A DNA stretch of 64,000 nt from assembly GCF_002163855.1 (NCBI RefSeq), contig NZ_CP019332.1, positions 161,213 to 225,212 of the forward strand. The letters are read 5' to 3'. Shown here piece by piece: positions 139 to 63,967 of the stretch; position 1 is the first letter of the stretch; each line of letters begins with the position of its first letter. This DNA is from Winogradskyella sp. PC-19. Lineage in GTDB: Bacteria > Bacteroidota > Bacteroidia > Flavobacteriales > Flavobacteriaceae. Position numbers and translations under genes: made by a program. A model generated the notes under the pieces. It searched no databases and was not told the origin of the DNA. It saw only the letters and a program-made list of their open reading frames with translations.

Positions 139-163
139 AATCTATGTTTTAATTGGGTACAAC

Positions 164-389
164 GTCCACTGTGTATGGCGTAGTGAGGCGCGCCTCATGG
201 AAAGCCATTGTTGCGCCTCATTAGCTATACACGCTGTTGTATGTAGTTTCGTGTGTAGTTCACGTAGACTTGACTAAATATACATAAAATCGGCGAGGTG
301 CGACAAACAGTGGACGTTGGTATGTAATTAGTAGAAAGGAAGCGTTTGCAAAACGCGATTCTACGTGCCGCAGGCAATTACATACCAAC
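164..389 (-). mobile_element. 226-bp gene-less repeat cassette, copy 1
   Basis: Spans GTCCACTG to CATACCAAC on the + strand. It contains its own attC-like site (161-318, closed by AACGTCCACTGT and its exact complement) and a 70-bp body bounded by GTTGGTATG and CATACCAAC. The body holds a GCGTTTGCAAAACGC hairpin. The unit is nearly identical to eight other copies and carries no credible gene. Confidence 0.85.
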
Positions 390-510
390 GTGTTTGTGTA
401 TGATTTCGTTGCGTGTTTCAGCACTAAAGTTAGCAAATAAATCACAGATAGAAAGTCCGCGAGGACTTTCGTAAGTAGGCTATAACTAGCAATGAATTAT
501 ACACGTTGTT
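387..510 (-). repeat. attC-like site 1 (GTGTATGATTTCG type)
   Basis: From AACGTGTTTGTGTATGATTT to TTATACACGTTGTT, an imperfect palindrome with an internal hairpin (AAAGTCCGCGAGGACTTT). It ends the cassette of the gene at 527-1321, whose barcode reads GAGGTTA at this edge and GTGGTTA (reverse complement) at the other edge: one mismatch in seven. Confidence 0.8.
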
Positions 511-526
511 GAGGTTAGTACTTATT

Positions 527-1321
527 TTATTTACTTAACTTCAATATTCTAATTGCACCTTGAATTACCAAAATAAAAACGATTGTTCCAATAATTAAAT
601 CAGGTTTACTTGAACTCAACCAATTTACCAAAATTCCTGCGATAATTACACCTAAATTGATAATCACATCATTTGAAGTAAAAATCATACTCGCTTTCAT
701 ATGAGCTTCTTCTTTACTTTTTGACTTTTGTAAAATATAAAGACAAATTCCGTTTGCGATAAGTGCAAAAATTGAAACGATAATCATTGTTGAAAAATTG
801 GGAAGTTTTTCGTCTCCGAAAAATCTCGTTAAAACTTCTACAAATCCAATAATTGCTAGTGTAATTTGAAAATATCCAGCAAGTTTTGCAATCCGCTTTT
901 TCTTAATTACAGTTCCGCCAACCGCAAACAAACTAATTCCGTAAACAAAACTATCGGCAAGCATATCCAAACTATCTGCAACAAGTCCCATTGATTTTGA
1001 GATAATTCCTGTTGTCATTTCGATAATGAAAAAGGCAAAATTGATTGCAAGTACAGACCAAAGTAGTTTTTTTTGGTTTGTATTTTCTTTAAATTCCGTT
1101 TGGTCGGTTTGTTCAGTTGAGATTTTTTTCCCGCCTAAATTCAGTTCGATAACTGACTTTTCGATTCTGTTAATTTCTCCGCTATGAAAAATGGTCAATT
1201 TTCGATTCGGAATGTCAAAGTCCAAATTCGCAATACTTGAAATTCCGTCCAATTTCATTCGGATTAGATTTTCCTCTGAAGGACAATCCATTTTTGTAAT
1301 TTCAAATATGGTTTTTTTCAC
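527..1321 (-). CDS. Cation diffusion facilitator-type transporter with N-terminal HMA-like domain
   Basis: 264 residues. Residues 1-70 look like a heavy-metal-associated domain with a single cysteine (MDCPSEE, Cys13) in place of the usual CxxC. Residues 85-260 hold several membrane segments with CDF metal-site residues: ADSLDMLAD in TM2 (Asp116, Asp119, Asp123) and SND (216-218) later. The family exports divalent metals by proton exchange. The usual C-terminal cytoplasmic domain is missing, so the protein is short for the family. It is alone in its cassette, between sites 1 and 2. Metal specificity cannot be read from sequence. Confidence 0.8.
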   Translation of the reverse strand: MKKTIFEITKMDCPSEENLIRMKLDGISSIANLDFDIPNRKLTIFHSGEINRIEKSVIELNLGGKKISTEQTDQTEFKENTNQKKLLWSVLAINFAFFIIEMTTGIISKSMGLVADSLDMLADSFVYGISLFAVGGTVIKKKRIAKLAGYFQITLAIIGFVEVLTRFFGDEKLPNFSTMIIVSIFALIANGICLYILQKSKSKEEAHMKASMIFTSNDVIINLGVIIAGILVNWLSSSKPDLIIGTIVFILVIQGAIRILKLSK

Positions 1322-1350
1322 TCGGTTTCTGGGTTTTCGGTATTAACCAC

Positions 1351-1478
1351 AACGGTCTCGGCTATGATTCCGTTGCGGCGAAAATCAGAATGATTTTCAG
1401 AGTAGGAATCAGTAGCATAGGTTAGGGGATTAAATTTAGTTTTTCTCACGGTTATAGCAATGGATTATAGCCATTGTT
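1351..1478 (-). repeat. attC-like site 2
   Basis: AACGGTCTCGGCTATGATTC pairs with GGATTATAGCCATTGTT. It closes the cassette of 1487-2751. Barcode GTGTGTA is identical at both edges of that cassette (GTT-GTGTGTA-G at 1476; AAT-TACACAC-AAC ending at 2876). Confidence 0.85.
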
Positions 1479-1486
1479 GTGTGTAG

Positions 1487-1858
1487 TTATTTTTTTATGA
1501 AGGTTTGATTGTTGTAAAACGAAATTTTGTCTTTAGAAACTATTCCCTTTTCTATTCTATTGTTACCATCTAGGGTTATAATTGAATCGTTAAGGGTGTA
1601 CTTCCCATTTACTTTCTCTATATTATTATCAATTGCTTTTGTGTAGGTAACTACAAATTCAGATTCAGACAAAAACTTTATAACGTATATATCATCTATA
1701 TCGATAAACTCCCATTGAGAATTTACAAGTTGTAACGGTTTTTTCTCAGTCTTATTGCATGATATTGTTAACACCAATATTAAGATTGAAATAATTTTTA
1801 TGAGTTTTAAATTAACTAATTGAATCTTCATTGTTAAAGTAAAAACTGAGTTTATCAT
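1487..1858 (-). CDS. Small lipoprotein of unknown function
   Basis: Up to 123 residues. The ATG at 1831 (MKIQLVNLK...) gives a better signal peptide than the one at 1858. The hydrophobic stretch ends in LVLTISCNK, a lipobox, so the mature protein should be lipidated. The rest is predicted mostly beta (QWEFIDIDDIYVIKFLSESEF... GKYTLNDSIITLDGN), resembling the small lipocalin-like or META-like lipoproteins common in Bacteroidota, but I do not recognise a family. It shares a cassette with 1876-2751, 17 bases upstream in transcription order, and is probably cotranscribed. Confidence 0.7.
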   Translation of the reverse strand: MINSVFTLTMKIQLVNLKLIKIISILILVLTISCNKTEKKPLQLVNSQWEFIDIDDIYVIKFLSESEFVVTYTKAIDNNIEKVNGKYTLNDSIITLDGNNRIEKGIVSKDKISFYNNQTFIKK

Positions 1859-2873: not shown

Positions 2874-2995
2874 AACGGTCTCGGCTATGAGTAGTTGTGT
2901 TGGTTAGCAATTAACTTTGCAAGTAAACACCAAACTGAAAATCCGCAGGATTTTCCGAGTACACACAAACTAAGCAATTGGTTATACACGTTGTT
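2874..2995 (-). repeat. attC-like site 3 (GGCTATGAGTAGTTG type)
   Basis: AACGGTCTCGGCTATGAGTA ... TTATACACGTTGTT with an internal AAAATCC/GGATTTT hairpin. Closes the cassette of 3048-3599; barcode GTGTGCA is exact at both edges. Confidence 0.85.
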
Positions 2996-3599: not shown

Positions 3600-3697
3600 T
3601 AGAATATTTCAATTGTGTAATCCAAAACTATACCATAATTGCAAAGATGAAATGTTAGTTGTAAAGATTTTCTGTGCTAGTTGAAATTGCACACAAC

Positions 3698-3923
3698 GTC
3701 CACTGTGTATGGCGTAGTGAGGCTCGCCTCATGGAAAGCCATTGTTGCGCCTCATTAGCTATACACGCTGTTGTATGTAGTTTCGTGTGTAGTTCACGTA
3801 GACTTGACTAAATATACATAAAATCGGCGAGGTGCGACAAACAGTGGACGTTGGTATGTAATTAGTAGAAAGGAAGCGTTTGCAAAACGCGATTCTACGT
3901 GCCGCAGGCAATTACATACCAAC
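3698..3923 (-). mobile_element. 226-bp gene-less repeat cassette, copy 2
   Basis: Same unit as at 164-389; the one difference I saw is GAGGCTCGCC in place of GAGGCGCGCC. It is placed between the start of the 3048-3599 cassette and attC-like site 4. Confidence 0.85.
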
Positions 3924-3964
3924 GTTCTGTATAAACTGCGTCTTAATGCAGTTTATACCTTGTT
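3921..3964 (-). repeat. attC-like site 4, very short (44 bp)
   Basis: GTATAAACTGCG ... GCAGTTTATAC with AAC and GTT ends and almost no loop. It closes the cassette of 3953-4528; barcode ATATAGC is exact at both edges (GTTATATAGCGTT and ATGCTATATAAC). The stop codon of the gene lies inside it. Confidence 0.85.
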
Positions 3965-4528
3965 ATATAGCGTTATTAATTTAGATTTTAAGTTATCTCT
4001 AACTTTACTCAAATCAACTCTGTTAAAATACTTTTCAACATCTTGAATTCCATCAAGAGTCTGGCTTATCCATTCTACTTTCACATCTCCTTCACTTAAA
4101 AGATATTCCTCTATTATTGTTTCCTTTTTAACACCAATGATTAAAAGTATTATACAAATAACAATTCCAGTTCTATCTTTTCCAGATAAACAATGAACTA
4201 GTATAGGAAATTTTAAATCAGATTTTTCAAATACTTTGATAATTTCGTTTAACCAAATTCTGACCTCTTTTTGGCTAGTATCATATTTTTCAATTTTGTT
4301 AGACATTGGGAAATGAAAATATTCTGATTTGAAAATAATAGAATCAGAACCATTTCTTAAGTTAATTATTGACCAAGCATTACCAATTTCACTTAGCTCA
4401 TTTACATAATCAATACTTCCTCCCCTTAGAAGTAGTTTTTCATTTAATAACTTTTCGCCACTTATTAAATTGACAAACTCTCCTACATCTCTGAAATTAA
4501 CACATCCATCTGTATAATCTAGTCCCAT
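3953..4528 (-). CDS. Tyrosine/dual-specificity protein phosphatase
   Basis: 191 residues, no signal peptide, probably cytoplasmic. The catalytic P-loop is HCLSGKDRTG (His112, Cys113, Arg119), the HC(X5)R signature of protein tyrosine phosphatases. The N-terminus (NFRDVGEF... LLLRGGSID) matches the Tyr_phosphatase_3 family. Acts on phosphotyrosine or related phosphoesters by a cysteinyl-phosphate intermediate; the substrate is unknown. The last residues (YNKV) and the stop are read from attC-like site 4. Single gene in its cassette, start about 15 bases from the cassette edge. Confidence 0.85.
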   Translation of the reverse strand: MGLDYTDGCVNFRDVGEFVNLISGEKLLNEKLLLRGGSIDYVNELSEIGNAWSIINLRNGSDSIIFKSEYFHFPMSNKIEKYDTSQKEVRIWLNEIIKVFEKSDLKFPILVHCLSGKDRTGIVICIILLIIGVKKETIIEEYLLSEGDVKVEWISQTLDGIQDVEKYFNRVDLSKVRDNLKSKLITLYNKV

Positions 4529-4545
4529 TTTTTATGCTATATAAC

Positions 4546-4771
4546 GTCCACTGTGTATGGCGTAGTGAGGCGCGCCTCATGGAAAGCCATTGTTGCGCCT
4601 CATTAGCTATACACGCTGTTGTATGTAGTTTCGTGTGTAGTTCACGTAGACTTGACTAAATATACATAAAATCGGCGAGGTGCGACAAACAGTGGACGTT
4701 GGTATGTAATTAGTAGAAAGGAAGCGTTTGCAAAACGCGATTCTACGTGCCGCAGGCAATTACATACCAAC
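4546..4771 (-). mobile_element. 226-bp gene-less repeat cassette, copy 3
   Basis: Same unit as at 164-389, between the start of the phosphatase cassette and attC-like site 5. Confidence 0.85.
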
Positions 4772-4829
4772 GTTTGGGCTAAAAAGCGTTGCTGTCCCGA
4801 AGGGCTGCTATGATTTTTTAGCCATTGTT
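4769..4829 (-). repeat. attC-like site 5, short (61 bp)
   Basis: GGGCTAAAAAGCG ... TTTTTTAGCCATTGTT. Closes the cassette of 5035-6483; barcode GTGCTTT(C) at this edge and GTGCTTC at the other (one extra base, as in sites 10, 11, 22 and 35). Confidence 0.8.
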
Positions 4830-6483: not shown

Positions 6484-6552
6484 TGTTTAATTTTTTATTA
6501 AGTCTATTTATTCAAACAGTGTGCCTTTATCGTTCTTTTAATGAAGCACAAC

Positions 6553-6778
6553 GTCCACTGTGTATGGCGTAGTGAGGCGCGCCTCATGGAAAGCCATTGT
6601 TGCGCCTCATTAGCTATACACGCTGTTGTATGTAGTTTCGTGTGTAGTTCACGTAGACTTGACTAAATATACATAAAATCGGCGAGGTGCGACAAACAGT
6701 GGACGTTGGTATGTAATTAGTAGAAAGGAAGCGTTTGCAAAACGCGATTCTACGTGCCGCAGGCAATTACATACCAAC
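6553..6778 (-). mobile_element. 226-bp gene-less repeat cassette, copy 4
   Basis: Same unit as at 164-389, between the YwqK-like cassette and attC-like site 6. Confidence 0.85.
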
Positions 6779-6900
6779 GGTCTCGTATAAGAATAGTAGC
6801 GGGTTTTAACGCATTGACTTTTCGGTTAAACACAGACCTTTTTTATATTTACTTACTTTCGTTTTAAGCGATTAAACCGCTATTATTTTTAAACGTTGTT
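6776..6900 (-). repeat. attC-like site 6 (TATAAGAATAGTAGCGG type)
   Basis: AACGGTCTCGTATAAGAATA ... TATTATTTTTAAACGTTGTT. Closes the cassette of 6911-8386; barcode AGCAATT here, AGCAAAT at the far edge (one mismatch). Confidence 0.8.
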
Positions 6901-8386: not shown

Positions 8387-8485
8387 ATTTATAAATTTTT
8401 TTTGAACTGAATTTAGTAAAATATACGAACGAATTTATGTTTTCTTTTTGTAATACAGGATATAATATTGATAATATTTGCTAAC

Positions 8486-8711
8486 GTCCACTGTGTATGG
8501 CGTAGTGAGGCGCGCCTCATGGAAAGCCATTGTTGCGCCTCATTAGCTATACACGCTGTTGTATGTAGTTTCGTGTGTAGTTCACGTAGACTTGACTAAA
8601 TATACATAAAATCGGCGAGGTGCGACAAACAGTGGACGTTGGTATGTAATTAGTAGAAAGGAAGCGTTTGCAAAACGCGATTCTACGTGCCGCAGGCAAT
8701 TACATACCAAC
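8486..8711 (-). mobile_element. 226-bp gene-less repeat cassette, copy 5
   Basis: Same unit as at 164-389. Here it follows directly on a truncated attC-like site, so the reading frame of the gene at 8582-8961 runs into it. Confidence 0.85.
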
Positions 8712-10264: not shown

Positions 10265-10289
10265 GGTGTTTTTTAAAATATGTGGTAAC

Positions 10290-10515
10290 GTCCACTGTGT
10301 ATGGCGTAGTGAGGCGCGCCTCATGGAAAGCCATTGTTGCGCCTCATTAGCTATACACGCTGTTGTATGTAGTTTCGTGTGTAGTTCACGTAGACTTGAC
10401 TAAATATACATAAAATCGGCGAGGTGCGACAAACAGTGGACGTTGGTATGTAATTAGTAGAAAGGAAGCGTTTGCAAAACGCGATTCTACGTGCCGCAGG
10501 CAATTACATACCAAC
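10290..10515 (-). mobile_element. 226-bp gene-less repeat cassette, copy 6
   Basis: Same unit as at 164-389, between the edge GTGGTAAC and attC-like site 8. Confidence 0.85.
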
Positions 10516-10635
10516 GGTCTCGGCTATGATTTCGTTGTGGAATCATCTGCAGGATTATTCCGCTTAGAAATCAGCCCTTGATTTATACTTTTATTATGGT
10601 GTGGCACAAAACCATAATGAATTATAGCCATTGTT
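10513..10635 (-). repeat. attC-like site 8
   Basis: AACGGTCTCGGCTATGATTT ... AATTATAGCCATTGTT. Closes the cassette of 10644-11819; barcode GTACCAT here, GTACCAC at the far edge. Confidence 0.85.
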
Positions 10636-11819: not shown

Positions 11820-11846
11820 ATTGGTTGGCTTTTAATGTGGTACAAC

Positions 11847-12071
11847 GTCCACTGTGTAAGGCGAGTGAGGCGCGCCTCACGAGAAGCCATAATCGCGTCT
11901 CATTTGTTATACATACAGTTGTGTGTAGTTTCGTGAGGAGTTCTCGTAGACTTGACTAAATATACAATAAAATTGGGAGGCGAGATTAACAGTGGATGTT
12001 GGTGAGTAATTAGTAGAAAGGGAGCGTTTGTAAAACGCGATTCTACGTGCCGCAGGCAATTACTCACCAAC
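11847..12071 (-). mobile_element. Diverged copy (225 bp) of the gene-less repeat cassette
   Basis: The tenth copy and the only strongly diverged one. Its body edges are GTTGGTGAGTAATT and AATTACTCACCAAC, where the other copies have GTTGGTATGTAATT and AATTACATACCAAC: both arms changed together, so pairing is kept. Many other differences are spread through it. Confidence 0.85.
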
Positions 12072-13314: not shown

Positions 13315-13444
13315 AACGTCCGGTTTGTGTATGATTAGTTGCGTGGTTTACGCTACTAATTTAGCAAACAAAACCGAGTCTGAGAATGTTTCGAAGGAAT
13401 ATTCCAGATGAGCCCAAGCCAAGCAATTAATTATACACGGTGTT
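13315..13444 (-). repeat. attC-like site 10, used as integration target
   Basis: AACGTCCGGTTTGTGTATGA ... TTATACACGGTGTT. Its last ten bases (13435-13444) are the left core of the integrative element. The cassette it closes resumes at 30325 (GTT-GGCATTT-C-GTT) and ends at 31738 (AAT-GAATACC-AAC). Confidence 0.8.
13435..13444 (+). other. Left attachment core of the integrative element
   Basis: ACACGGTGTT, identical to 30318-30327. Left of it is attC-like DNA, right of it (ATATAGATACTGC) is element DNA. Joining the element's two ends gives ATATAACAC-G-GTGTTATAT, a perfect dyad about a central G, as expected for a tyrosine-recombinase core. Confidence 0.8.
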
Positions 13445-13559
13445 ATATAGATACTGCACTCAGTTACTCTGAAATTCACTGAAACCCTTTGAATACAGTG
13501 CTTTACAGGTTTTGACTAAACTAACATAATGCAACAAAATGCGCTAAAATGCTTGTTTT

Positions 13560-13580
13560 GTTGTACCTATTGTTGTACCT
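13560..13580 (+). repeat. Candidate integrase arm-binding repeats, left
   Basis: GTTGTACCTAT and GTTGTACCT lie in tandem 12 bases apart just before the integrase gene; one more copy (GTTGTACCTAT) is at 30249-30259 near the right end. Repeats at both ends of an integrative element are typical arm-type sites; this is inference. Confidence 0.45.
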
Positions 13581-13626
13581 TAGTACTCGGTTGCACCGCA
13601 TTGCATCCCTTTAAAACCAGTACTTT

Positions 13627-14844
13627 ATGTCTTCAATAAAACTAATTTTAAGAAATAACAAAGTAGATAAAGCAGGTGAAGCACCTCTTTATTTAAGAGT
13701 TATCAAAGACCGTAAAACTAAATTCATTTCGTTAAGCCTAAAATTAAAGCCAAATGAATGGGATGAAGATAAGCAAAAAGTAAAGAAGAATCACAGCAAT
13801 TCTACAAGGCTAAACGCTTATATTTCTCAAAAGGTTGCAGATGCAAAAGGCGAGATTGCAGACCTTGAAAGAAGAAACCAATCTACAACCGCAAGAAAAC
13901 TAAAAGAGGCCATTAAGGGTAAACCCTTAACGAACTTTTTTGACTACTCTGATAATCTTTGCGAAAAGCGAAAAGACACTTTAGCCTATTCAACGTATAA
14001 GAATTACAAAACCTATTTAAAGAAATTTGAAAAGTTTGTAGGGCATAGAGAATTGATGTTTGAAGATATTACAGTTACAATGTTAAAAGATTTTGCATCC
14101 TATTGCAGTTCTACATTAGGTAACAATAACACAACGATTAATTTCTCTTTAAAGATTATGAAGATAATGTTTAAGGAAGCACAAAAAGAAGATTTAATAC
14201 CTTTGGATTTATTTCCCTTTAACAAGTTCACAGTAAAAAAAGAAAAGAGTACAAAACGCTATCTATCTGCGGAACAGTTTCAGGACTTTATGGGTTTAGA
14301 AGTTCCAAATAAAGACAAAGCACAGATTATAAAAGATATGTTTATATTTTCAGTCTTTGCAGGTGGTTTAAGGTTTGGTGATATGCTAGAGTTAAAATGG
14401 AAAAATTACGATAAGAAAAACGGTAAAATCACAAAGGTTATCAGAAAAACAAACAGACAGCACAGCGTTAGAATAGGTCAAAAAGCGGTTGAGATATTAG
14501 AGAAGTATCAACAAAAAGACCAGAAACAAGAAGATATAATTTTTCCTTTTGCAAATATTGATAAAACCTATTTTACAGATAAAGAGCATAGAAATTTAAT
14601 AACCGGAAGAGCCATAGCATTAAGCAATATGTATTTAAGAAAAATGGGCAAACGTTTAGAACTACCTTTTAATTTATCGTTTCACATAAGCAGACATACA
14701 TTTGCTACTAGGGCATTAAATAATGGTATGCGTATAGAACACGTTTCTAAATTGATGGACCATTCAGATATTGGTATTACGCAAGTGTATGCAAAGATTA
14801 TTAGTAGTGAGTTAGATAATGCAGTAGATAAATATATTAATTAG
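13627..14844 (+). CDS. int: Tyrosine recombinase (integrase) of the element
   Basis: 405 residues. Residues 1-95 are an arm-binding region, about 105-205 a SAM-like core-binding domain (SYSTYKNYKTYLKKFEKF-like), and 210-405 the catalytic domain. The active-site residues are all present: Arg249 (GGLRFGDMLELKW), His353 and Arg356 (HISRHTFAT), His379 (LMDHSDI) and Tyr388 (TQVYAKI). It is of the Bacteroidota mobile-element type and should catalyse integration and excision at the ACACGGTGTT core. It sits 180 bases inside the left end and is followed 3 bases later by 14848-16830. It is not an integron integrase. Confidence 0.92.
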   Translation: MSSIKLILRNNKVDKAGEAPLYLRVIKDRKTKFISLSLKLKPNEWDEDKQKVKKNHSNSTRLNAYISQKVADAKGEIADLERRNQSTTARKLKEAIKGKPLTNFFDYSDNLCEKRKDTLAYSTYKNYKTYLKKFEKFVGHRELMFEDITVTMLKDFASYCSSTLGNNNTTINFSLKIMKIMFKEAQKEDLIPLDLFPFNKFTVKKEKSTKRYLSAEQFQDFMGLEVPNKDKAQIIKDMFIFSVFAGGLRFGDMLELKWKNYDKKNGKITKVIRKTNRQHSVRIGQKAVEILEKYQQKDQKQEDIIFPFANIDKTYFTDKEHRNLITGRAIALSNMYLRKMGKRLELPFNLSFHISRHTFATRALNNGMRIEHVSKLMDHSDIGITQVYAKIISSELDNAVDKYIN

Positions 14845-14847
14845 TTT

Positions 14848-16830
14848 ATGAAGGAAATTGTTTTTGATAGTTTTAAAAGCACACTTCAAGAAGTGAAGAT
14901 TTTAAATAATATCGTTGTAAAAGAAAAAATTAGTAAGTCTGAATTAGAAGAAAGTTTAAAGCAAGCGCAGAATTTATTATTTTCTAGTTACAGTAGCTTG
15001 AATATTTTTGCTGAATCAGTTAAAAGTTATATATCTGTAGGGTATAAGATTACACCTTTTGATAAAAAAGAGAAGAAACAAATATCAAAAATTGAAGCTA
15101 AAATAATTTATAACAAATTATTAGGCATCATAAACACGGAACTAGAAAAAGATATTATTGTATCAACAGAATCATTAATTCTTCAAAGTCAAGTTTCTTC
15201 ATTAGGTTTAGCTTTTATTTCGGCTTCAATAGATGAAAATCTAAAAAATTTTAATGACGAATTAAATATTGGTAAATTAAAATCACAAGAATTATCAACA
15301 GCACTAAATAAATATTTTGCTGCTATAATAGGTTATATCCAAGATATTTTATTGTACGACATTTATTTAATCTTTGAAAAACCAGAGATTACCTATATCC
15401 AAGAACTCGTATTTACGAGCGACTACAAAAAAGAATACATAGATAAATGGTTGAACTGTACTGTAACTTTTAATGAATTAAGAAGAAATAAAAGAACAGA
15501 TCATTGGGCTGAAATATATAAGCTAAAATTAGAATTTGAACAAACAGAAAAAATAGAAAATCATCAAAAAAAACTTTTTAATGAACGTATTGAAACAGAG
15601 ATAAGGAGTGCTATAACTGATTTTGATGAATTAGAAGATGACGTTAAAAAGGAAGCATTAAATAAAGAGATTAAATTAATACAAGACTTTTTTAATAGTA
15701 ATACATCAAAGACTGTTGTAAAAAGACTCAAAAATATTTTAAGTTTTTCAAAGCCAAAAGAGGTTGTTCTAGAGTATGATAATATTTTAAGAGATAGGTT
15801 ATTGTTGAGTGATTTTAATGTTTACGAAGTTGGTAAATCAAATTATTCATCAGCTTTTGTAGCATCTTTCTTTATGCAGTATTTAGATAAATTAAAAGAA
15901 TATTTAGAATCACTTAACAATGAAGTAAATACTAATAAAATGATAAACGAACAATTTCAATACGACAACTTCAAAGATTTATTATTAGTAGAAGAATTAG
16001 AAAAGCGTTTAGCGATTGAAGCTGTTGAGTACAAAAAGAATTGCGATGACTATTGGGAAACTTATACTTTCGACCCAACCTATTTTGATACGTTTATTTC
16101 TGGTGAGTTGTACACTATATTTTTAAACGCCATATATGAAAGAATAAAGCCTTTAAATGACTTTGAAATTAATAAATACCTAACACTATCAGTAAATCAA
16201 TTTAAGACGCATACACCAACAAAAAGAGCTGAAATATTTAAAAGAATTTATAATGCCACATATTGGTATCCAAATTATATGGAGTATGAAGAATATGAGT
16301 ATGAAACTAAATATGTAATGCACGTTTGGAAGCATTACGCAAATCATTTCCACTTATTTAAGGAAGCTACAGAAAACGTATTACAGGACTTTAAAAAAGG
16401 CTTAATTGGTAGTGGCAGAAAACAACAAGTAATTGAAAAACCAAAGCCTAAAACAAAATCAAAGCATCACTCATTTACTTATAAAAAATGGCAATTTGAA
16501 TCTACAAATCTAACTTATTTAAAAGAGTCATTAATTGATAAAAAATTAATAGCATCTGACACAGAATTAAAACACTTTAGAAAAGTATTTAGCGGAGAAG
16601 AAATTGAAAAGCCTATTGTCTGGACTGGTAATATTAGCGAACTTTCATATTTCATTAAGCAATTGCATAATGAATTAAAACTTGTTGAGGATTTAAAACA
16701 ACAGCAGTGGGCAGTAACTATAAACTGTTTTATTCAAGAAAACGGAGAGCAATATAACCGCACTAAATTAAGAACTCAAAAAGTTCCTGCTACATCAAAA
16801 AACATTGATATCGCATTAAAAACACTATAA
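14848..16830 (+). CDS. Large protein of unknown function in the element
   Basis: 660 residues, no signal peptide or membrane segment; acidic and lysine-rich, predicted mostly alpha-helical with long heptad-like stretches. Around residues 525-545 there is a basic linker (KKGLIGSGRKQQ... EKPKPKTKSKHHSF), dividing a 520-residue helical part from a C-terminal domain of about 115 residues ending near the stop. Starts 3 bases after the integrase, so probably cotranscribed. I recognise no family; proteins of this size after the integrase are common in Bacteroidota islands. A terminator-like hairpin follows. Confidence 0.65.
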   Translation: MKEIVFDSFKSTLQEVKILNNIVVKEKISKSELEESLKQAQNLLFSSYSSLNIFAESVKSYISVGYKITPFDKKEKKQISKIEAKIIYNKLLGIINTELEKDIIVSTESLILQSQVSSLGLAFISASIDENLKNFNDELNIGKLKSQELSTALNKYFAAIIGYIQDILLYDIYLIFEKPEITYIQELVFTSDYKKEYIDKWLNCTVTFNELRRNKRTDHWAEIYKLKLEFEQTEKIENHQKKLFNERIETEIRSAITDFDELEDDVKKEALNKEIKLIQDFFNSNTSKTVVKRLKNILSFSKPKEVVLEYDNILRDRLLLSDFNVYEVGKSNYSSAFVASFFMQYLDKLKEYLESLNNEVNTNKMINEQFQYDNFKDLLLVEELEKRLAIEAVEYKKNCDDYWETYTFDPTYFDTFISGELYTIFLNAIYERIKPLNDFEINKYLTLSVNQFKTHTPTKRAEIFKRIYNATYWYPNYMEYEEYEYETKYVMHVWKHYANHFHLFKEATENVLQDFKKGLIGSGRKQQVIEKPKPKTKSKHHSFTYKKWQFESTNLTYLKESLIDKKLIASDTELKHFRKVFSGEEIEKPIVWTGNISELSYFIKQLHNELKLVEDLKQQQWAVTINCFIQENGEQYNRTKLRTQKVPATSKNIDIALKTL

Positions 16831-16872
16831 TAACACTCTACACTTCAAGCGCAGTATTAAAAAACTTTTTTC

Positions 16873-16912
16873 AAAAAACACAGTTAATCTCTTTTAGGTT
16901 AGCTGTTTTTTT
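16873..16912 (+). terminator. Rho-independent terminator
   Basis: CAGTTAA pairs with TTAGCTG across a loop of about ten bases and is followed by seven T's. It lies 40 bases after 14848-16830 and would end the integrase transcript. Confidence 0.7.
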
Positions 16913-17017
16913 ATGCCACTCTACACTCTGCACCTTACTCTAAACCCTTGTTTATGAAGTATTTTTATCCTCTGTTTCTGGCAATCTTTGTTTTCATAAT
17001 CATAAAATTTTTATCAA

Positions 17018-17308
17018 ATGGAAGCAATTATTCTATCCGCACAACAGTACAAAGAATTAGTAAATCGTTTAGATGTTCTAAACAAAAAACTAGAAGAAAA
17101 GCAAAAGTCGCCTAACGACACTTTTCTAGACAATCAAGAATTTTTACAGCTAATGAATATTAGCAAAAGAACAGCGCAATCCTGGAGAGATGAAGGTAAA
17201 GTATCATTTTCTCAAATAGGCTCAAAAATCTATTACAGAATGAGCGATGTTCAGAAGCTTTTAGACAAAAACTACAAAGCAGCATTTTCTAACAAACGTA
17301 AATATTAA
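17018..17308 (+). CDS. Helix-turn-helix protein, excisionase-like
   Basis: 96 residues. An N-terminal helix (residues 1-30) precedes a winged-helix domain of the MerR/Xis (HTH_17) type: FLQLMNISKRTAQSWRDEGKVSFSQIGSKIYYRMSDVQKLLDKN. The family binds DNA; in integrative elements it commonly acts as a recombination directionality factor or repressor. Located between the integrase block and the primase gene, 19 bases ahead of the latter. Excisionase role is inferred from position. Confidence 0.8.
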   Translation: MEAIILSAQQYKELVNRLDVLNKKLEEKQKSPNDTFLDNQEFLQLMNISKRTAQSWRDEGKVSFSQIGSKIYYRMSDVQKLLDKNYKAAFSNKRKY

Positions 17309-17327
17309 TTCTAAAATGTAAAAAGTT

Positions 17328-18812: not shown

Positions 18813-18903
18813 AAAAAGATGTTTATAAGTAGTACTTAAAGTAACTAAAATAACAAGCAGAGTTACTATAGTTATTAAAGTTACCCTTCAAGAAAAACTT
18901 TTT

Positions 18904-44125: not shown

Positions 44126-44167
44126 ATTTATTTGCCAGCTTATGGGATTGATTTTATGACACACAAC

Positions 44168-44393: not shown

Positions 44394-44513
44394 GTTTCGT
44401 GTATGATTTCGTAAGGGATTTCGGACTTTAAACCTGTCAAGTTACCACCAAATTTTGATGCGAGTGATAATGCCTGAAAACCTCTGAAACCCTTATGAAT
44501 TATACACATTGTT
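44391..44513 (-). repeat. attC-like site 17
   Basis: AACGTTTCGTGTATGATTTC ... AATTATACACATTGTT. Closes the RtcB cassette; barcode ACCAGCT here, ACCAGCA at the far edge. Confidence 0.8.
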
Positions 44514-45493: not shown

Positions 45494-45618
45494 AACGGTT
45501 TCGTATAACCGTCAGTTACGGGTTTTAAATTACTATTTTTTGATTAATAACTGACGCTCGCAATTCCGAGTGGATTCGGACGTAGTCGAATCCGCCGTAA
45601 TTGCGGTTATACATTGTT
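45494..45618 (-). repeat. attC-like site 18 (TATAACCGTCAGTTACGGG type)
   Basis: AACGGTTTCGTATAACCGTC ... TTGCGGTTATACATTGTT. Closes the cassette of 45607-46350; barcode GTAAAAC exact at both edges. Confidence 0.88.
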
Positions 45619-46350: not shown

Positions 46351-46377
46351 TATTTTGTTTCTCAAATGTTTTACAAC

Positions 46378-46603
46378 GTCCACTGTGTATGGCGTAGTGA
46401 GGCGCGCCTCATGGAAAGCCATTGTTGCGCCTCATTAGCTATACACGCTGTTGTATGTAGTTTCGTGTGTAGTTCACGTAGACTTGACTAAATATACATA
46501 AAATCGGCGAGGTGCGACAAACAGTGGACGTTGGTATGTAATTAGTAGAAAGGAAGCGTTTGCAAAACGCGATTCTACGTGCCGCAGGCAATTACATACC
46601 AAC
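46378..46603 (-). mobile_element. 226-bp gene-less repeat cassette, copy 10
   Basis: Same unit as at 164-389, between the 45607-46350 cassette and attC-like site 19. Confidence 0.85.
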
Positions 46604-46724
46604 GGTCTTGTATATGAAAAGTAGCGGATTTTTAAGCACTACTTTTCGGTTTATTACTAACTATAAATTTAAAAAATTAAATTTCGTTTAAACTTTAAAA
46701 CCGCTATTTTTTATATACGTTGTT
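46601..46724 (-). repeat. attC-like site 19 (TATATGAAAAGTAGCGG type)
   Basis: AACGGTCTTGTATATGAAAA ... CTATTTTTTATATACGTTGTT. Closes the cassette of 46688-48842; barcode GGCAACT here, GGCAACA at the far edge. Confidence 0.82.
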
Positions 46725-48891: not shown

Positions 48892-49014
48892 AACGGTCTA
48901 GGCTATGAGTAGTTGCGTGGGTTAGCACTTAACTTTGCAAGTACACACCAAACTGAAAATCCACGAGGATTTTCAGAAGTAGGCGAGAACCAGCCATTAA
49001 TTATACACGTTGTT
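48892..49014 (-). repeat. attC-like site 20 (GGCTATGAGTAGTTG type)
   Basis: AACGGTCTAGGCTATGAGTA ... TTAATTATACACGTTGTT. Closes the cassette of 49069-49800; barcode AGCCTCT(C) here, AGCCTCC at the far edge. Confidence 0.82.
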
Positions 49015-49827: not shown

Positions 49828-49951
49828 AACGTGTTTGTGTATGATTTCGTTGCGTGTTTAAGCATTAAAGTTAGCAAATAAATTACAGATAGAAAGTCCG
49901 CGAGGACTTTCGTAAGTGGGCAATAACTAGCAATGAATTATACACATTGTT
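49828..49951 (-). repeat. attC-like site 21 (GTGTATGATTTCG type)
   Basis: AACGTGTTTGTGTATGATTT ... AATTATACACATTGTT. Closes the cassette of 49962-50432; barcode GTAGCAC here, GTATCAC at the far edge. Confidence 0.85.
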
Positions 49952-50491: not shown

Positions 50492-50617
50492 AACGTGTTT
50501 GTGTATGGTTAGTTGCGTGAGCGACTAAAGATAGCAAAAGGGGACGAGTCTGAGGAAAATTCGGAGAATTTTCCGATTGGCAGGAAGAAACTCTCGCAAT
50601 TAATTATACACGGTGTT
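50492..50617 (-). repeat. attC-like site 22
   Basis: AACGTGTTTGTGTATGGTTA ... AATTATACACGGTGTT. Closes the cassette of 50631-51200; barcode GTGCGTT(C) here, GTGCGTC at the far edge. Confidence 0.82.
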
Positions 50618-51231: not shown

Positions 51232-51353
51232 AACGTTCCGGCTATGAGTAGTTGCGTGGTTTAACACTTAACTTTGCAAGTACACACCAAACTGAAAATC
51301 CGCGAGGATTTTCAGAAGTAGGCGAGAACCAGCAATTACTTATAGCCATTGTT
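51232..51353 (-). repeat. attC-like site 23 (GGCTATGAGTAGTTG type)
   Basis: AACGTTCCGGCTATGAGTAG ... TTATAGCCATTGTT. Closes the RloA/RloB cassette; barcode GGCAATA is exact at both edges and complementarity continues to 14 bases. Confidence 0.88.
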
Positions 51354-53449: not shown

Positions 53450-53575
53450 AACGGTCTCGTATAACCGTCAGTTACGGGTTAATATACGCAAACCTTTCGG
53501 CTTAGCACAGACTTTAGCAATTCCGAGTGGATTCGGACGAAGTCGAATCCGCCGTAATTGCGGTTATATATTGTT
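53450..53575 (-). repeat. attC-like site 24 (TATAACCGTCAGTTACGGG type)
   Basis: AACGGTCTCGTATAACCGTC ... TTGCGGTTATATATTGTT. Closes the cassette of 53589-54032; barcode GTATGCA exact at both edges. Confidence 0.9.
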
Positions 53576-54056: not shown

Positions 54057-54180
54057 AACGGAATTGTGTATGATCTCGTTGCGTAGTTAAGCACTAAAGT
54101 TAGCAAATAAAATACAGATAGAAAGTCCGCTAGGACTTTCGCAAGTATGCACTAACTAGCAATGAATTATACACGTTGTT
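54057..54180 (-). repeat. attC-like site 25 (GTGTATGATTTCG type)
   Basis: AACGGAATTGTGTATGATCT ... TTATACACGTTGTT. Closes the cassette of 54179-54936; barcode ACCTGCT here, ACCTGCA at the far edge. The TAA of the last gene is formed by its GTTA end. Confidence 0.85.
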
Positions 54181-54966: not shown

Positions 54967-55089
54967 AACGGTCTCGGCTATGAGTAGTTGCGTGGGTTAG
55001 CGTTAAACTTAGCAAGTACACACCAAGCTGAAAATCCGCAAGGATTTTCATAAGTAGGCGAGAACAAGCAATTACTTATAGCCATTGTT
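54967..55089 (-). repeat. attC-like site 26 (GGCTATGAGTAGTTG type)
   Basis: AACGGTCTCGGCTATGAGTA ... TTATAGCCATTGTT. Closes the cassette of 55101-55965; barcode GCTAGTA here, GCCAGTA at the far edge. Confidence 0.85.
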
Positions 55090-56001: not shown

Positions 56002-56125
56002 AACGTTTAGTATATGAAAAGTAGCGTGTAACAATTCCTATACTTTTCCGACTAAAATAGAGTTATTAAATAAACAATGCAAATAAGATTTGGCACAGAT
56101 TTAGCTATTTTTTATATACGTTGTT
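56002..56125 (-). repeat. attC-like site 27 (TATATGAAAAGTAGCG type)
   Basis: AACGTTTAGTATATGAAAAG ... TTTTTATATACGTTGTT. Closes, or opens, the one cassette with reversed genes (56185-57068). Barcode AGCCATA exact at both edges, so the cassette frame itself is not inverted; only the genes are. Confidence 0.85.
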
Positions 56126-56184
56126 AGCCATAGTTTTTATATTTGCTCGAAATATTATATATTTACTATAATAAATTCTTAGAA

Positions 56185-56649
56185 ATGGAATGTTTATCAC
56201 ATAAATCGAAAATTAAAGATACTTTTTCAAGTGTTAGAGATTTCTCGTATTCTGAAAAGAGAAATCCTATGTCAGAAGATGCAATGAACAATCAACTTTT
56301 AGATGCTATACTTGATTTAAAATCTTCTATCAAGAATAAAACTAAAAGAATTTATGAAGTTAATCATAACATTGAAAAACTAACTTGGTTTAATGATTTA
56401 GACGAAGAGTGTTTAATGTTAACTAACGACTTAATTTCAGCTGCTAAGGATTTGCGTTCTTCTCTTATCCGACAATATATTTCTTTAGACTTTTTAAGAA
56501 AGAAGGGTATTGCAAAAGAAGAAATAAAAGATTTCAAGAATTCTATTGATGAATTAAAGGAAACTTATCAAGATTTAGAATCTGTATTCTTTTATCTTCC
56601 AGAAATTCCAGAATTCGTAGAAACTACTAAACAACTTTCTCTTGTTTAA
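56185..56649 (+). CDS. Coiled-coil protein, possible antitoxin, in reverse orientation
   Basis: 154 residues from the ATG at 56185 (an in-frame TTG at 56143 is less likely). Almost entirely helical with heptad spacing (LLDAILDLKSSIKNKTKRIYEVNHNIEKL, ... DLRSSLIRQYISLDFLRKKGIAKEEIKDFKNSIDELKETYQDLESVF). No DNA-binding motif is clear. It overlaps 56649-57068 by one base. The position ahead of a RelE-like gene, and the pair's own orientation, suggest a toxin-antitoxin pair; unproven. Confidence 0.6.
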   Translation: MECLSHKSKIKDTFSSVRDFSYSEKRNPMSEDAMNNQLLDAILDLKSSIKNKTKRIYEVNHNIEKLTWFNDLDEECLMLTNDLISAAKDLRSSLIRQYISLDFLRKKGIAKEEIKDFKNSIDELKETYQDLESVFFYLPEIPEFVETTKQLSLV

Positions 56650-57068
56650 TGGATTTATATTGTTTAGAGGACTTTAAAGTTGAGTTTGAGAAATTAAATT
56701 CCAAGAAGTCATATAAAACAATTGAAGCCGATTTAATAAATTACTTTTTTGATAAATCTACACAAGAACTTGCGTCTGGGACAAGATTGAATAATAGTGA
56801 TGATACTCCTTATATAAAAAAGCGTTTAAGAGGTAGCGGTGGATTCCGTTGTTATTATCTTTTAATTATAAAAAACGAAGCACTTTATTTAATGTTTGTT
56901 CATCCTAAAACAGGGTCAAAAGGTTCTGAAAATATTACAGATGAATCTAAAGCTTATCTTTATAAAAAAGTTTTAGAATGTATTAAATCAGAAGACCTTT
57001 ATAGATTAACACTCAATGACTCAAAAACTAAAATAAACTTTCAAAAAGTCATTAGCGTTCCGTCATAA
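56649..57068 (+). CDS. RelE/HigB-like protein, possible toxin, in reverse orientation
   Basis: 139 residues. The middle, KKRLRGSGGFRCYYLLIIKNEALYLMFVHPKTGSKGSENITDESKAYLYKKVLECIKSEDL, has the order seen in RelE/HigB-type mRNA interferases: RGxGGxR, consecutive strands, then KxGxxx-NI and a helix. The canonical RelE catalytic residues cannot all be assigned. One-base overlap with the helical gene upstream suggests a two-gene module. It is the only plus-strand cargo in the array. Confidence 0.6.
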   Translation: MDLYCLEDFKVEFEKLNSKKSYKTIEADLINYFFDKSTQELASGTRLNNSDDTPYIKKRLRGSGGFRCYYLLIIKNEALYLMFVHPKTGSKGSENITDESKAYLYKKVLECIKSEDLYRLTLNDSKTKINFQKVISVPS

Positions 57069-57076: not shown

Positions 57077-57201
57077 AACGGTCTCGTATAACCGTCAGTT
57101 ACGGGTTTAAAGTTACTGTTTTTCGGTTAAGCACTGACTTTTGCAATTCCGAGTGGATTCGGACGTAGTCGAATCCGCCGTAATTGCGGTTATACATTGT
57201 T
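57077..57201 (-). repeat. attC-like site 28 (TATAACCGTCAGTTACGGG type)
   Basis: AACGGTCTCGTATAACCGTC ... TTGCGGTTATACATTGTT. Closes the cassette of 57190-57639; barcode GTAATGC exact at both edges. Confidence 0.9.
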
Positions 57202-57700: not shown

Positions 57701-57824
57701 AACGGTCTAGTATAAGAATAGTAGCGGATTTTTTGCACTTACTTTTCGGTTAGTTACTGTCGTTTGATTTATATATTTCACTTTCATTTTAGCGATTAAG
57801 CCGCTATTATTTTTATACATTGTT
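57701..57824 (-). repeat. attC-like site 29 (TATAAGAATAGTAGCGG type)
   Basis: AACGGTCTAGTATAAGAATA ... TATTATTTTTATACATTGTT. Closes the cassette of 57829-58857; barcode GTGGCTA exact at both edges. Confidence 0.88.
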
Positions 57825-58906: not shown

Positions 58907-59093
58907 AACGGTTTTGTATATGGCTCGTAGCGTGCAAATTATGAAATTACTTTCGGATTAAGCACGAGCCGAATTTTTTAATTTTTCTTATTACCTTTTT
59001 TCTCAATAAGCCAAATTAAAAAATTTGGCGGACTCGCAAATACACCTTAACTTCGATTAAGCAACTGACTAGCAATGAGCTATATACGTTGTT
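58907..59093 (-). repeat. attC-like site 30, long type (187 bp)
   Basis: AACGGTTTTGTATATGGCTC ... GAGCTATATACGTTGTT with GCCAAAT/ATTTGGC inside. Closes the cassette of 59098-60027; barcode AGGGTTA exact at both edges. Confidence 0.85.
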
Positions 59094-60060: not shown

Positions 60061-60184
60061 AACGTTGTTGTATAAGATTAGTTGCGAAGTTTAAGCACTA
60101 AAGTTAGCAAATAAATCACAAATGGAAAGTCCGCGAGGACTTTCGTAAGTAGGCTAGAACTAGCAATTAATTTTATACGGTGTT
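60061..60184 (-). repeat. attC-like site 31 (GTATAAGATTAGTTGCG type)
   Basis: AACGTTGTTGTATAAGATTA ... TAATTTTATACGGTGTT. Closes the cassette of 60193-60717; barcode GGGCACT here, GGGCACT/A at the far edge with pairing over 13 of 14 bases. Confidence 0.87.
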
Positions 60185-60743: not shown

Positions 60744-60868
60744 AACGGTTTTGTATATGAAAAGTTGCGTTTATTTGAGCGCGATTTTTCAGGCTATTTT
60801 GTTTTTTTATAAAAGTAGTAAAATTTTTCAATGGAGTAGAAGTACAGCAATTTTTTATATACGGTGTT
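60744..60868 (-). repeat. attC-like site 32
   Basis: AACGGTTTTGTATATGAAAA ... TTTTTTATATACGGTGTT. Closes the cassette of 60855-61385; barcode GTACGTA exact at both edges. Confidence 0.87.
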
Positions 60869-61399: not shown

Positions 61400-61588
61400 A
61401 ACGGTTTTGTATAAGATTAGTGTGGGAGTTTGACAATTTGTGAATTGTCAGCCGAGCCACTAAGCTTATACTTATTTAGTATTTTTATCTTGTCGACCTA
61501 AAAATACTCAAATAAGTAAAAGCGACATAATAAAGTAACCAAAACTTTGGGCTAAACCATAAAACCCACATTAATTTTATGCGGTGTT
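61400..61588 (-). repeat. attC-like site 33, long type (189 bp)
   Basis: AACGGTTTTGTATAAGATTA ... TTAATTTTATGCGGTGTT with several internal hairpins (GACAATTTGTGAATTGTC). Closes the cassette of 61600-61998; barcode GTAAAAC exact at both edges. Confidence 0.83.
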
Positions 61589-62115: not shown

Positions 62116-62240
62116 AACGGTTTAGTATAACCGTCAGTTACGGGTTTTAAATTACTATTTTTCGATTAAGCACTGACGCTCGCAATTCCGAGTGGATTCG
62201 GACGTAGTCGAATCCGCCGTAATTGCGGTTATACATTGTT
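62116..62240 (-). repeat. attC-like site 34 (TATAACCGTCAGTTACGGG type)
   Basis: AACGGTTTAGTATAACCGTC ... TTGCGGTTATACATTGTT. Closes the cassette of 62229-62909; barcode GTAAACA exact at both edges. Confidence 0.9.
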
Positions 62241-62711: not shown

Positions 62712-62909
62712 TTAAAATGAGTCGTAAATTAGTTTTATACCAATTGCAAAAAGGATAAATGCACCTAAAATGAATTCAATCGTGAACGACATTCGCATAT
62801 AATCTTCATTTTTTCTTTGAGCAACGAATTTCTTTCTTTCGTAATTGTACCATATAATTCCAAGTGCTATTAACAAAGCTCCAAGTAAAAATGTTAGTAC
62901 CTTTTCCAT
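62712..62909 (-). CDS. Small two-segment membrane protein
   Basis: 65 residues: a first membrane segment (VLTFLLGALLIALGIIWY), a basic loop (NYERKKFVAQRKNEDYMR) and a second segment (IEFILGAFILFAIGIKLIY). No family recognised. First gene of a two-gene cassette with 62229-62711, whose start follows immediately, so the two are probably coupled. Confidence 0.62.
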   Translation of the reverse strand: MEKVLTFLLGALLIALGIIWYNYERKKFVAQRKNEDYMRMSFTIEFILGAFILFAIGIKLIYDSF

Positions 62910-62919
62910 AATTGTTTAC

Positions 62920-63105
62920 AACGTTTAGTATATGGCAAGTAGGGCAGTAGAAAGCAATAAACTTTCGGATTTGCACTGAGCCAAAACGTTGTATTTTGTT
63001 TTTATCTTATTCATTTTAAAAGCCAAATCAACGATTTGGCGGTGTTTCAAATAACCACAGGACTTTCAGAAACCACTGAACGCCCTATTTGCTATATACA
63101 TTGTT
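62920..63105 (-). repeat. attC-like site 35, long type (186 bp)
   Basis: AACGTTTAGTATATGGCAAG ... TTTGCTATATACATTGTT with GCCAAATC/GATTTGGC inside. Closes the cassette of 63118-63808; barcode GTGGTGT(C) here, GTAGTGC at the far edge. Confidence 0.8.
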
Positions 63106-63117
63106 GTGGTGTCGTTT

Positions 63118-63540
63118 TTATTTTATTTCTTTAATCTTTCCAGTATTATAAAGTTCTTCGAGCATTGGTTTCAATTCCTGCCAATCTATGTCCTTACTCA
63201 TTTCTTTGTATTCATTCGTACTATCTAAATACTCCTTCAAAAACCAAGCATCAATTTTCCCGAACTTTGGTGCATTCGTCAGGATTACTTCAATGTTTTG
63301 TTGTGTTTTTCTTTTATGAAATCCACATTCTCCTCCGTGAAAAGAGTAATTGACTCTTTCAGAAAGTTTACCACTCCTGGGAACCTTTTTGTTTCCTTTC
63401 CAAATTAATTCATCGTATTCCTTTTGAACAGCTATATCGTATTCAAATTTCTTCCCCAATCTGTTCATTAGTTCCATTCCTTCTGAACGATATTCGATAA
63501 TAGCTTTGGCTAATATGTCTAATGTGATTTTTTTATTCAT
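63118..63540 (-). CDS. Small soluble protein of unknown function
   Basis: 140 residues from the ATG at 63540; the in-frame extension to 63591 lies inside the upstream gene and is unlikely. It is basic and helical with KKVPRSGKLSERVNYSFHGGECGFHKRKTQQNIEVILTNAPKFGKIDAWFLKEYLDS. A His/Cys/Gly motif (FHGGECGFHK) is notable but not a standard zinc finger. The DUF6896 family has a similar RGxW/HGxGC pattern, but I only recall it vaguely. Overlaps 63533-63808 by 8 bases. Confidence 0.6.
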   Translation of the reverse strand: MNKKITLDILAKAIIEYRSEGMELMNRLGKKFEYDIAVQKEYDELIWKGNKKVPRSGKLSERVNYSFHGGECGFHKRKTQQNIEVILTNAPKFGKIDAWFLKEYLDSTNEYKEMSKDIDWQELKPMLEELYNTGKIKEIK

Positions 63541-63808
63541 AAAACTTACCTGCATAAAGTAAAAGCGCAAAGCTCTTCCAATTAGGTTCATCCTTTATTT
63601 GTTCGCTGTCTTCACCGTACGCTTCAATGGATTCCAAAAAAGAGGAAATTGTTCCATTTTCCCAACCATTGGCTCCTGAAGAATATGGAGAAGAAGGATT
63701 TGTTTTTTCCTTCTCATCCTCATCAATTTTATCGTCTTTTAGAGCTTTTACAAATTGGAGAAATGTATCCTTTGAGTTTACTCTTTCTAATAATTCATTT
63801 AAATCCAT
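63533..63808 (-). CDS. DUF7660-like small acidic protein
   Basis: 91 residues: NELLERVNSKDTFLQFVKALKDDKID... SSGANGWENGTISSFLESIEAYGEDSEQIKDEPNWKSFALLLYAGKFYE. The regular order (an initial helix, then W.N..l..fLe.i, then W..fA.lL.AgkfYE) matches what I know as DUF7660. Found in bacteria near small immunity-like proteins; function unknown. First gene of its cassette. Confidence 0.72.
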   Translation of the reverse strand: MDLNELLERVNSKDTFLQFVKALKDDKIDEDEKEKTNPSSPYSSGANGWENGTISSFLESIEAYGEDSEQIKDEPNWKSFALLLYAGKFYE

Positions 63809-63843
63809 TTTAGATGTTCACTTGAGTTTTTTCTAATGCACTA

Positions 63844-63967
63844 CAACGGTCTGGTGTATGATTTCGTTGCGTGTTTAAGCACTAAAGTTAGCAAATAAAA
63901 CACAGATAGAAAGTCCGCTAGGACTTTCGCAAGAAGACTCTAACTAACAATGAATTATACACGGTGT
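63844..63967 (-). repeat. attC-like site 36 (GTGTATGATTTCG type)
   Basis: AACGGTCTGGTGTATGATTT ... TTATACACGGTGTT. Closes a cassette that continues past the window; its barcode here is AGCCTAC. Confidence 0.85.

Follow-up and report, generated by a model that had tools for sequence, protein, structure and literature searches.

An integron-like cassette array in Winogradskyella sp. PC-19, probably served by a XerA-like recombinase family of Bacteroidia

Classical integrons, such as the superintegrons of Vibrio and the class 1 elements, combine the integrase IntI with an attI site and cassettes bounded by attC sites, whose core boxes follow the patterns RYYYAAC and GTTRRRY, and the integrase carries an insertion that reads the bulged bases of the folded site. 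In integrons of the Treponema type, a classical IntI is present and its gene is oriented with the cassettes. In the pdif modules of Acinetobacter plasmids, recombination by XerC/XerD has been proposed for 28-bp dif-like sites, and we know of no hairpin attC-like sites of the kind described here in pdif modules or GInt islands. An IntI-specific domain is named among the defining characteristics of integrons in passages of PMC9668308, and Bacteroidota are listed among the integron-bearing phyla in passages of PMC8618304. Here, we describe a 64-kb stretch of Winogradskyella sp. PC-19 DNA (the window, meaning the whole of the DNA analysed), which is very probably an internal piece of a cassette array belonging to an integron-like system of Bacteroidia; in related genomes, a XerA-like tyrosine recombinase is encoded beside such arrays (the array-side recombinase). 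No published description of such arrays was found in the open-access literature, preprints excluded, as judged by titles and the beginnings of abstracts.

Apart from one inserted element, the window is cassette array from end to end. The curated list holds 47 rows, comprising 45 complete sites running from AAC to GTT, one site recognized by its left end only (8709), and half of a split site, the right one (~ 30318–30327); an earlier note on this DNA had recognized the palindromic AAC/GTT sites but had counted 36 of them. Most sites are 122–126 nt long, the others being 44–61 nt, ~ 158 nt (ten copies), or 186–189 nt. The bases following GTT at one edge of a cassette are complementary to those preceding the next AAC, with at least five consecutive matches in 38 of the 45 intervals. 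Six of the first eight bases match in four of the remaining seven intervals and five of eight in another, while of the last two, one contains the inserted element and the other has its right edge called one base off. The matched runs sum to 306 bases, compared to a mean of 70 and a maximum of 140 in 10,000 random re-pairings, which bears out the cassette-specific, reverse-complementary edges that the earlier note had described. Since the two flanks of a single site rarely match (by no more than two bases in 40 of 46), the match is a property of the cassette and not of the site. Outside the inserted element, the longer open-reading frames (ORFs) occupy the minus strand, each finishing against its own site, and the single exception to one-way cargo, already reported in that note, is a two-ORF cassette on the plus strand (56143–57068). 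One non-coding cassette of 74 nt, accompanied by a 158-nt site (repeat family D1), is present in ten copies, with a constant 3′ site and a varying 5′ neighbor. These 158-nt sites, spread over window positions 161–46532, have an additional palindrome of 20 nt at the terminus and, inside, a 78-nt half that resembles a site, and may be a fusion of two sites. In arrays from other genomes, complementary edges were present in 124 of 140 intervals (mean 4.1 and maximum 12 in 2,000 re-pairings), with the complementarity mostly extending 6–7 bases past GTT and AAC. The base after GTT is a purine (GTTR) in 169 of 171 sites, and the full GTTRRRY box was met in 17 of 171 only.

The sites also behave as paired hairpins when compared to one another. 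An alignment of 27 window sites predicts a consensus stem of 12 pairs, eight of which show compensatory double changes. A larger set of 65 sites (15 from the window and 50 from other loci), in which 17 pairs were tested, had 94.9% of cells paired and 176 double-change cells, compared to 50 in shuffles and 13–49 with the partner slid, so that the stems on whose pairing the earlier note had staked its proposal do covary. Two coarser measures on the same set were less clear-cut, with 11 pairs showing a double change versus 9.0 in shuffles (reached by 16 of 500) and 26 further pair types versus 22 (reached by 18 of 500); six of the 17 pairs are invariant. A covariance model built from the 65 sites (R1), where the note had proposed one from its own 36, detected 31 window sites at E ≤ 0.009, all 31 on the minus strand, and missed the ten 158-nt sites, three short sites, and the site at 13315–13444, itself a seed. 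Folding predictions were compared between strands for those 25 of the 45 complete window sites that are 100–135 nt long with at least five of six end bases matched. The strand opposite the genes is predicted to be more stable in 25 of 25 (−25.1 versus −21.5 kcal/mol with matched ends, as in the excised circle), and the form found in the array is predicted to fold more weakly than the circle form (−19.5 kcal/mol). An Rfam scan of the window returned one sub-threshold GAIT match (E 0.55), which was dismissed as chance.

The array-side recombinase family was reached through the XerA gene of a Flagellimonas plasmid, which is itself probably plasmid backbone and has a 100% identical copy on an Arenibacter plasmid. 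A tblastn search with this protein gave matches at 16 of 143 other site-bearing loci, and in all 16, the sites are arranged with the recombinase at their 5′ end. Thirty genomes behind array loci were then considered, selected as site-bearing and 15 of them for a recombinase in the same stretch; sites are present in 30 of 30 (from 3 to at least 117 each), and a recombinase scoring above 240 bits is present in 28, whereas the housekeeping-type Xer matches reach only 140–209 bits. Of the 37 matches exceeding 240 bits, 31 were fetched with their surrounding DNA (257 kb on the cassette side and 107 kb on the other), and all 178 sites in these stretches are on one strand and one side of the recombinase, with none on the other side; counted over matched distances, the numbers are 60 and 0. 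The same one-sidedness was seen for 94 of 94 sites in the 15 stretches taken from genomes whose first stretch had no recombinase. In 25 of 31 stretches, the gene and the cassettes share one orientation, and in the other six, the gene is reversed relative to them. When the hexamer upstream of the first site was used to predict the 5′ edge of the first cassette, 28 of 31 stretches proved to contain GTT followed by the predicted hexamer, at a distance of 6–305 nt from the match to the recombinase, a putative attI-type junction by position and hexamer. Residues R235, K260, H324, R327, H350, and Y359 (numbering of the L031 protein), which we take to be the catalytic set of tyrosine recombinases, are invariant across 13 aligned proteins. 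Approximately 100 extra N-terminal residues without a convincing Pfam match precede the Xer-like part in eight of these 13 (for example, L031:3639–4769), and this region is absent from several recombinases that point away from the array.

Compared to known integrases, none of ten array-side recombinases passes the TIGR02249 integron-integrase cut-off (191–227 bits versus 265 bits), and five of the ten pass the NCBIfam XerA model. The alignment of IntI4 (2a3v) to an array-side recombinase falls into two pieces, 12–182 and 247–318, the IntI insertion of ~ 42–43 residues being absent, and among the 12 displayed rows of a 70-protein alignment, the insertion is present in the four IntI rows only. 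In the tree of these 70 proteins, for which XerC drew a long-branch warning, 53 rows (41 new recombinases and 12 IntI) split from 17 Xer rows with a support of 100/99, and the array-side recombinases do not group with the XerC/XerD of their own genomes. The new recombinases alone do not form one clade in the best tree, and a single clade is not rejected (p-AU 0.44).

Taken together, the cassette edges, the attI-like junctions, the neighboring recombinase, and the folding of the sites strongly support the view that the array works like an integron cassette array. As in classical integrons, the recombinase is at the 5′ end next to an attI-type junction, the array runs one way, the hairpin sites are bounded by AAC and GTT, the cassette ends are complementary, and the opposite strand folds better. 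It is not an ordinary IntI/attC integron, since the recombinase is without the IntI-specific domain and below the integrase cut-off and the GTTRRRY box is rare; unlike in classical integrons, moreover, the recombinase mostly points with the cassettes, a direction shared with Treponema-type integrons, and hairpin and body separate between genera (see below). The array-side proteins may belong to the "integron-like" subgroup of simple tyrosine recombinases of PMC8138268, in passages of which no arrays or attI sites are tied to the insertion-less members. With the dimer-resolution recombinases XerA, XerC, and XerD they share fold and domain make-up, and they differ from the housekeeping Xer copies in their separate grouping, their link to arrays, and, in most of the aligned proteins, the N-terminal extension. 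The pdif modules and GInt islands are likewise gene modules linked to tyrosine recombinases.

In the mechanism that we propose, each cassette consists of a gene body between GTT and AAC, which carries one cassette-specific hexamer in inverted orientation at either edge, and of the hairpin site behind it. On excision into a circle, the two hexamers would come together and lengthen the hairpin stem. The XerA-like recombinase, whose gene lies at the array's 5′ end, would bind the folded strand opposite the genes, a folded single strand being the presumed substrate, and would insert cassettes at the attI-type junction adjoining its own gene. The recombinase serving the window itself would be encoded beyond position 64000.

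Sites and recombinases of this kind are widespread. A degenerate site pattern matched 23 stretches of viral contigs and at least 119 stretches of genome contigs, the latter belonging, as judged by title, chiefly to Flavobacteriaceae from the sea and to other Bacteroidota. Three of the latter are contigs of metagenome-assembled genomes labelled Patescibacteria or Thorarchaeota (L074, L090, and L120), which could be mis-binned Bacteroidota or real transfers. Among 295 Bacteroidia genomes, at least 96 contain the site at E ≤ 1e-6, a lower bound because 11 candidates were scored per genome, and 149 contain the recombinase family at E ≤ 1e-68. The search of other genomes, which the earlier note had suggested for Flavobacteriaceae, found the sites to be widespread in Bacteroidia. 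Both components were found in 76 genomes, the recombinase only in 73, the site only in 20, and neither in 126 (p = 3e-12, uncorrected for kinship). Plasmids from Persicobacter psychrovividus and Flagellimonas marinaquae carry near-identical sites, and a 40-kb piece of the Persicobacter plasmid pPP2 has 51 site matches at E ≤ 1, of which 50 are on the same strand. BLAST with two other site types against plasmids gave no matches. The earlier note had proposed a sedentary array of the chromosomal-integron type; the integron-like array stands, while "sedentary" and "chromosomal" are conjectural for a window that lacks an array-type recombinase, related arrays being found on plasmids as well. The genome with at least 117 sites is that of Lacinutrix neustonica (G029; L228), where the array spans ~ 160 kb or more, with listed sites at ~ 841–1001 kb. 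On pPP2, one cassette (hexamer ATCTCT) is repeated many times with a constant 3′ site and varying 5′ neighbors.

Several observations weigh against an integron-like system run by the array-side recombinase. A six-frame search of the window with the array-side recombinase model revealed no array-type recombinase. Two of the 30 array-bearing genomes have no recombinase above 240 bits, and the match at the start of the large G029 array contains two stop codons. In the 295-genome sample, 20 of the 96 site-bearing genomes were without the recombinase at the threshold used, and the 73 recombinase-only genomes had no detected site. Three of the 31 recombinase stretches do not fit the junction prediction, with no junction in L202 and L215 and one 1.9 kb away in L218, and the sequence before the junction falls into two sub-forms by eye with no strict consensus. 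The insertion that the array-side recombinase lacks is described as essential for integron function in passages of PMC8138268. Finally, for cassettes shared between genera, neither neighboring site was shared beyond background in seven of nine pairs (five of seven families).

These nine distinct pairs, representing seven cassette families and including three pairs that are one cassette in three species, are 75–99% identical and have equal hexamers. They were compared with a strand filter, and the edges were called by a script requiring matched hexamers, so that the equality of the edges is partly built in, while the fact that DNA homology stops there is not; on one side it breaks off at GTT, and on the other it ends with AAC or a little beyond. 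The pair L207/L210 falls just below the background limit (74.3 versus 75.7%), and the pair L216/L106 has the first 19 bases after AAC in common. Among duplicates within single records, the 3′ site was kept in 37 of 38 rows, a set to which a single plasmid stretch contributes 32 rows and in which one row (L073) is a single place called twice. Because the 3′ site is kept in duplicates but not between genera, the hairpin travels with the body in the short term, as it does in classical integrons, and has been exchanged between genera. Body and hairpin may, therefore, re-assort; we infer that such an exchange would result if a near-symmetric hairpin could be cut at either of its ends, and gene conversion or another route is also possible.

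From this we draw a tentative extension, which we consider possible but somewhat doubtful, that Bacteroidia own a widespread integron lineage whose recombinases branch with IntI, never had or have lost the insertion, and act on cassettes whose body and hairpin are separately exchangeable. Without the insertion, the enzyme could use either strand of a near-symmetric hairpin, with crossovers at AAC as well as at GTT. If true, this would make the cassette a two-part unit of body and hairpin, unlike the classical one, would explain the apparent absence of integrons from this class, and would make the system a pre-IntI form of the integron. The prevalence of the recombinase family exposes a large cassette pool that escapes the integron-integrase model and to which a candidate phage-defence pair in the window belongs, and the system offers a direct test of which part of the protein is needed to recombine folded single-stranded sites.

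It could be argued that these are ordinary integrons served in trans by a classical IntI, which is encoded at another place and moves the cassettes while the XerA-like protein is an unrelated neighbor, and the attC-like layout of the sites and the grouping of the new recombinases with IntI against XerC/XerD are in keeping with that. A classical IntI above the cut-off was also found in 84 of 296 genomes of a wider phylum sample; GTDB places Rhodothermia, Chlorobia, and Ignavibacteria inside the same phylum, and one IntI-positive genome of this kind is G+C-rich with classical-looking attC. However, only one of 295 Bacteroidia genomes and none of the 30 array-bearing genomes has a classical IntI above the cut-off, and the site model gave no match in 13 classical IntI loci (48 kb). 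By contrast, all 31 stretches have the XerA-like gene at the 5′ end of their sites, 28 of them together with the attI-type junction. We, therefore, regard a trans-acting IntI as very unlikely. The remark in the earlier note that such arrays are rarely if ever described in Bacteroidota accordingly holds for IntI in the class Bacteroidia but not in the wider phylum sample.

Recombination of the sites by the housekeeping XerC/XerD, in the manner of pdif modules, seems more improbable still: no site was found in 298 kb around 20 XerD-type genes of array-bearing genomes, the arrays come with a recombinase apart from XerC/XerD, which has an attI-type junction of its own, and the sites are hairpins of ~ 124 nt where dif-like sites have 28 bp. 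The idea given the least credence is that the sites are selfish hairpin repeats, similar to repetitive extragenic palindromes (REP) or miniature inverted-repeat transposable elements (MITE), scattered by a transposase without cassette exchange. The sites are indeed repetitive, some being nearly identical across orders, and many genomes have copies on several contigs, but repeats alone explain neither the matched inverted hexamers on the flanking bodies, nor the one-way orientation of the sites from the recombinase, nor the recurrence of bodies with the same ends beside different hairpins. An integron-like system with an array-side XerA-like recombinase accordingly remains the reading that we favor.

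The features of the window are collected in Table 1. The integrative element that interrupts the array is 16.9 kb long (13445 to ~ 30327), begins at the GTT end of the preceding site, and has the ten bases ACACGGTGTT at both ends. It encodes an arm-type tyrosine recombinase (13627–14844), a D5-type primase (17328–18812), and restriction-modification genes (21230–26531) resembling an Alw26I locus, and its placement at the GTT end is as if an array site had served as its target. Its recombinase, the only window match to the array-side model at 62.6 bits, was considered as the array enzyme and rejected on account of that score, its arm-binding domain, and its location inside the element. The array cargo is mixed, with efflux, phosphatase, peptidase S58, and choloylglycine-hydrolase family proteins, two beta-lactamase-family proteins, LytTR regulators, an AbiLi/AbiLii-like pair, and two proteins with the Por_Secre_tail sorting domain, a Bacteroidota trait.

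Table 1 Features of the 64-kb window, in window coordinates
Feature	Position	Strand	Basis
158-nt-type site, copy 1 of 10 (its 74-nt non-coding cassette at 316–389)	161..318	-	curation + repeat family D1
Recombination site	387..510	-	curation + covariance model
Cassette gene, cation efflux family (PF01545)	527..1321	-	domain match
Recombination site	1351..1478	-	curation + covariance model
Recombination site	2874..2995	-	curation + covariance model
158-nt site, copy 2	3695..3852	-	curation + repeat family
Short site, 44 nt	3921..3964	-	curation
Cassette gene, tyrosine phosphatase family (PF13350)	3953..4528	-	domain match
158-nt site, copy 3	4543..4700	-	curation + repeat family
Short site, 61 nt	4769..4829	-	curation
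158-nt site, copy 4	6550..6707	-	curation + repeat family
Recombination site	6776..6900	-	curation + covariance model
158-nt site, copy 5	8483..8640	-	curation + repeat family
158-nt site, copy 6	10287..10444	-	curation + repeat family
Recombination site	10513..10635	-	curation + covariance model
157-nt site, diverged copy 7	11844..12000	-	curation + repeat family
Recombination site; surrounding DNA shares 96.8% identity with a stretch of Persicobacter psychrovividus plasmid pPP2	12069..12191	-	curation + covariance model
Recombination site, GTT end interrupted by inserted element	13315..13444	-	curation; missed by model R1
Inserted integrative element, outside array machinery	13445..30327	.	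ACACGGTGTT at both ends
Recombination site	31736..31860	-	curation + covariance model
Recombination site	32630..32755	-	curation + covariance model
Short site, 54 nt	38040..38093	-	curation
158-nt site, copy 8	39077..39234	-	curation + repeat family
Recombination site	39303..39426	-	curation + covariance model
Short site, 45 nt	40904..40948	-	curation + covariance model (E 0.009)
Long site, 186 nt	41581..41766	-	curation + covariance model
Cassette gene, beta-lactamase family (PF00144)	41785..43470	-	domain match
158-nt site, copy 9	44165..44322	-	curation + repeat family
Recombination site	44391..44513	-	curation + covariance model
Recombination site	45494..45618	-	curation + covariance model
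158-nt site, copy 10	46375..46532	-	curation + repeat family
Recombination site	46601..46724	-	curation + covariance model
Recombination site	48892..49014	-	curation + covariance model
Recombination site	49828..49951	-	curation + covariance model
Recombination site	50492..50617	-	curation + covariance model
Recombination site	51232..51353	-	curation + covariance model
Two-gene cassette, RloB/AbiLii-like (51366–52052) and AAA ATPase AbiLi-like (52052–53368), candidate phage defence	51366..53368	-	
Recombination site	53450..53575	-	curation + covariance model
Recombination site	54057..54180	-	curation + covariance model
Recombination site	54967..55089	-	curation + covariance model
Recombination site	56002..56125	-	curation + covariance model
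Opposite-strand exception, two ORFs in a single cassette	56143..57068	+	ORF list
Recombination site	57077..57201	-	curation + covariance model
Recombination site	57701..57824	-	curation + covariance model
Long site, 187 nt	58907..59093	-	curation + covariance model
Recombination site	60061..60184	-	curation + covariance model
Recombination site	60744..60868	-	curation + covariance model
Long site, 189 nt	61400..61588	-	curation + covariance model
Recombination site	62116..62240	-	curation + covariance model
Long site, 186 nt	62920..63105	-	curation + covariance model
Recombination site	63845..63968	-	curation + covariance model

The tet(X3) gene of plasmid pHH1107 (L145, 4052–6073) was considered as a cassette. 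Upstream of it stand a truncated recombinase, 54% identical to an array-side one over 234 residues, and, between this recombinase and the gene, an attI-like stretch, but the hexamers at the two ends of the gene do not match and no site was found behind it at E ≤ 1, and it was kept as a lead only. Recombinases with equal scores are on many Acinetobacter plasmids. On the Flagellimonas plasmid (L018), typed as mobilizable, a gene of the dihydrofolate-reductase family (10816–11649) is located between two sites, beside erm(F).

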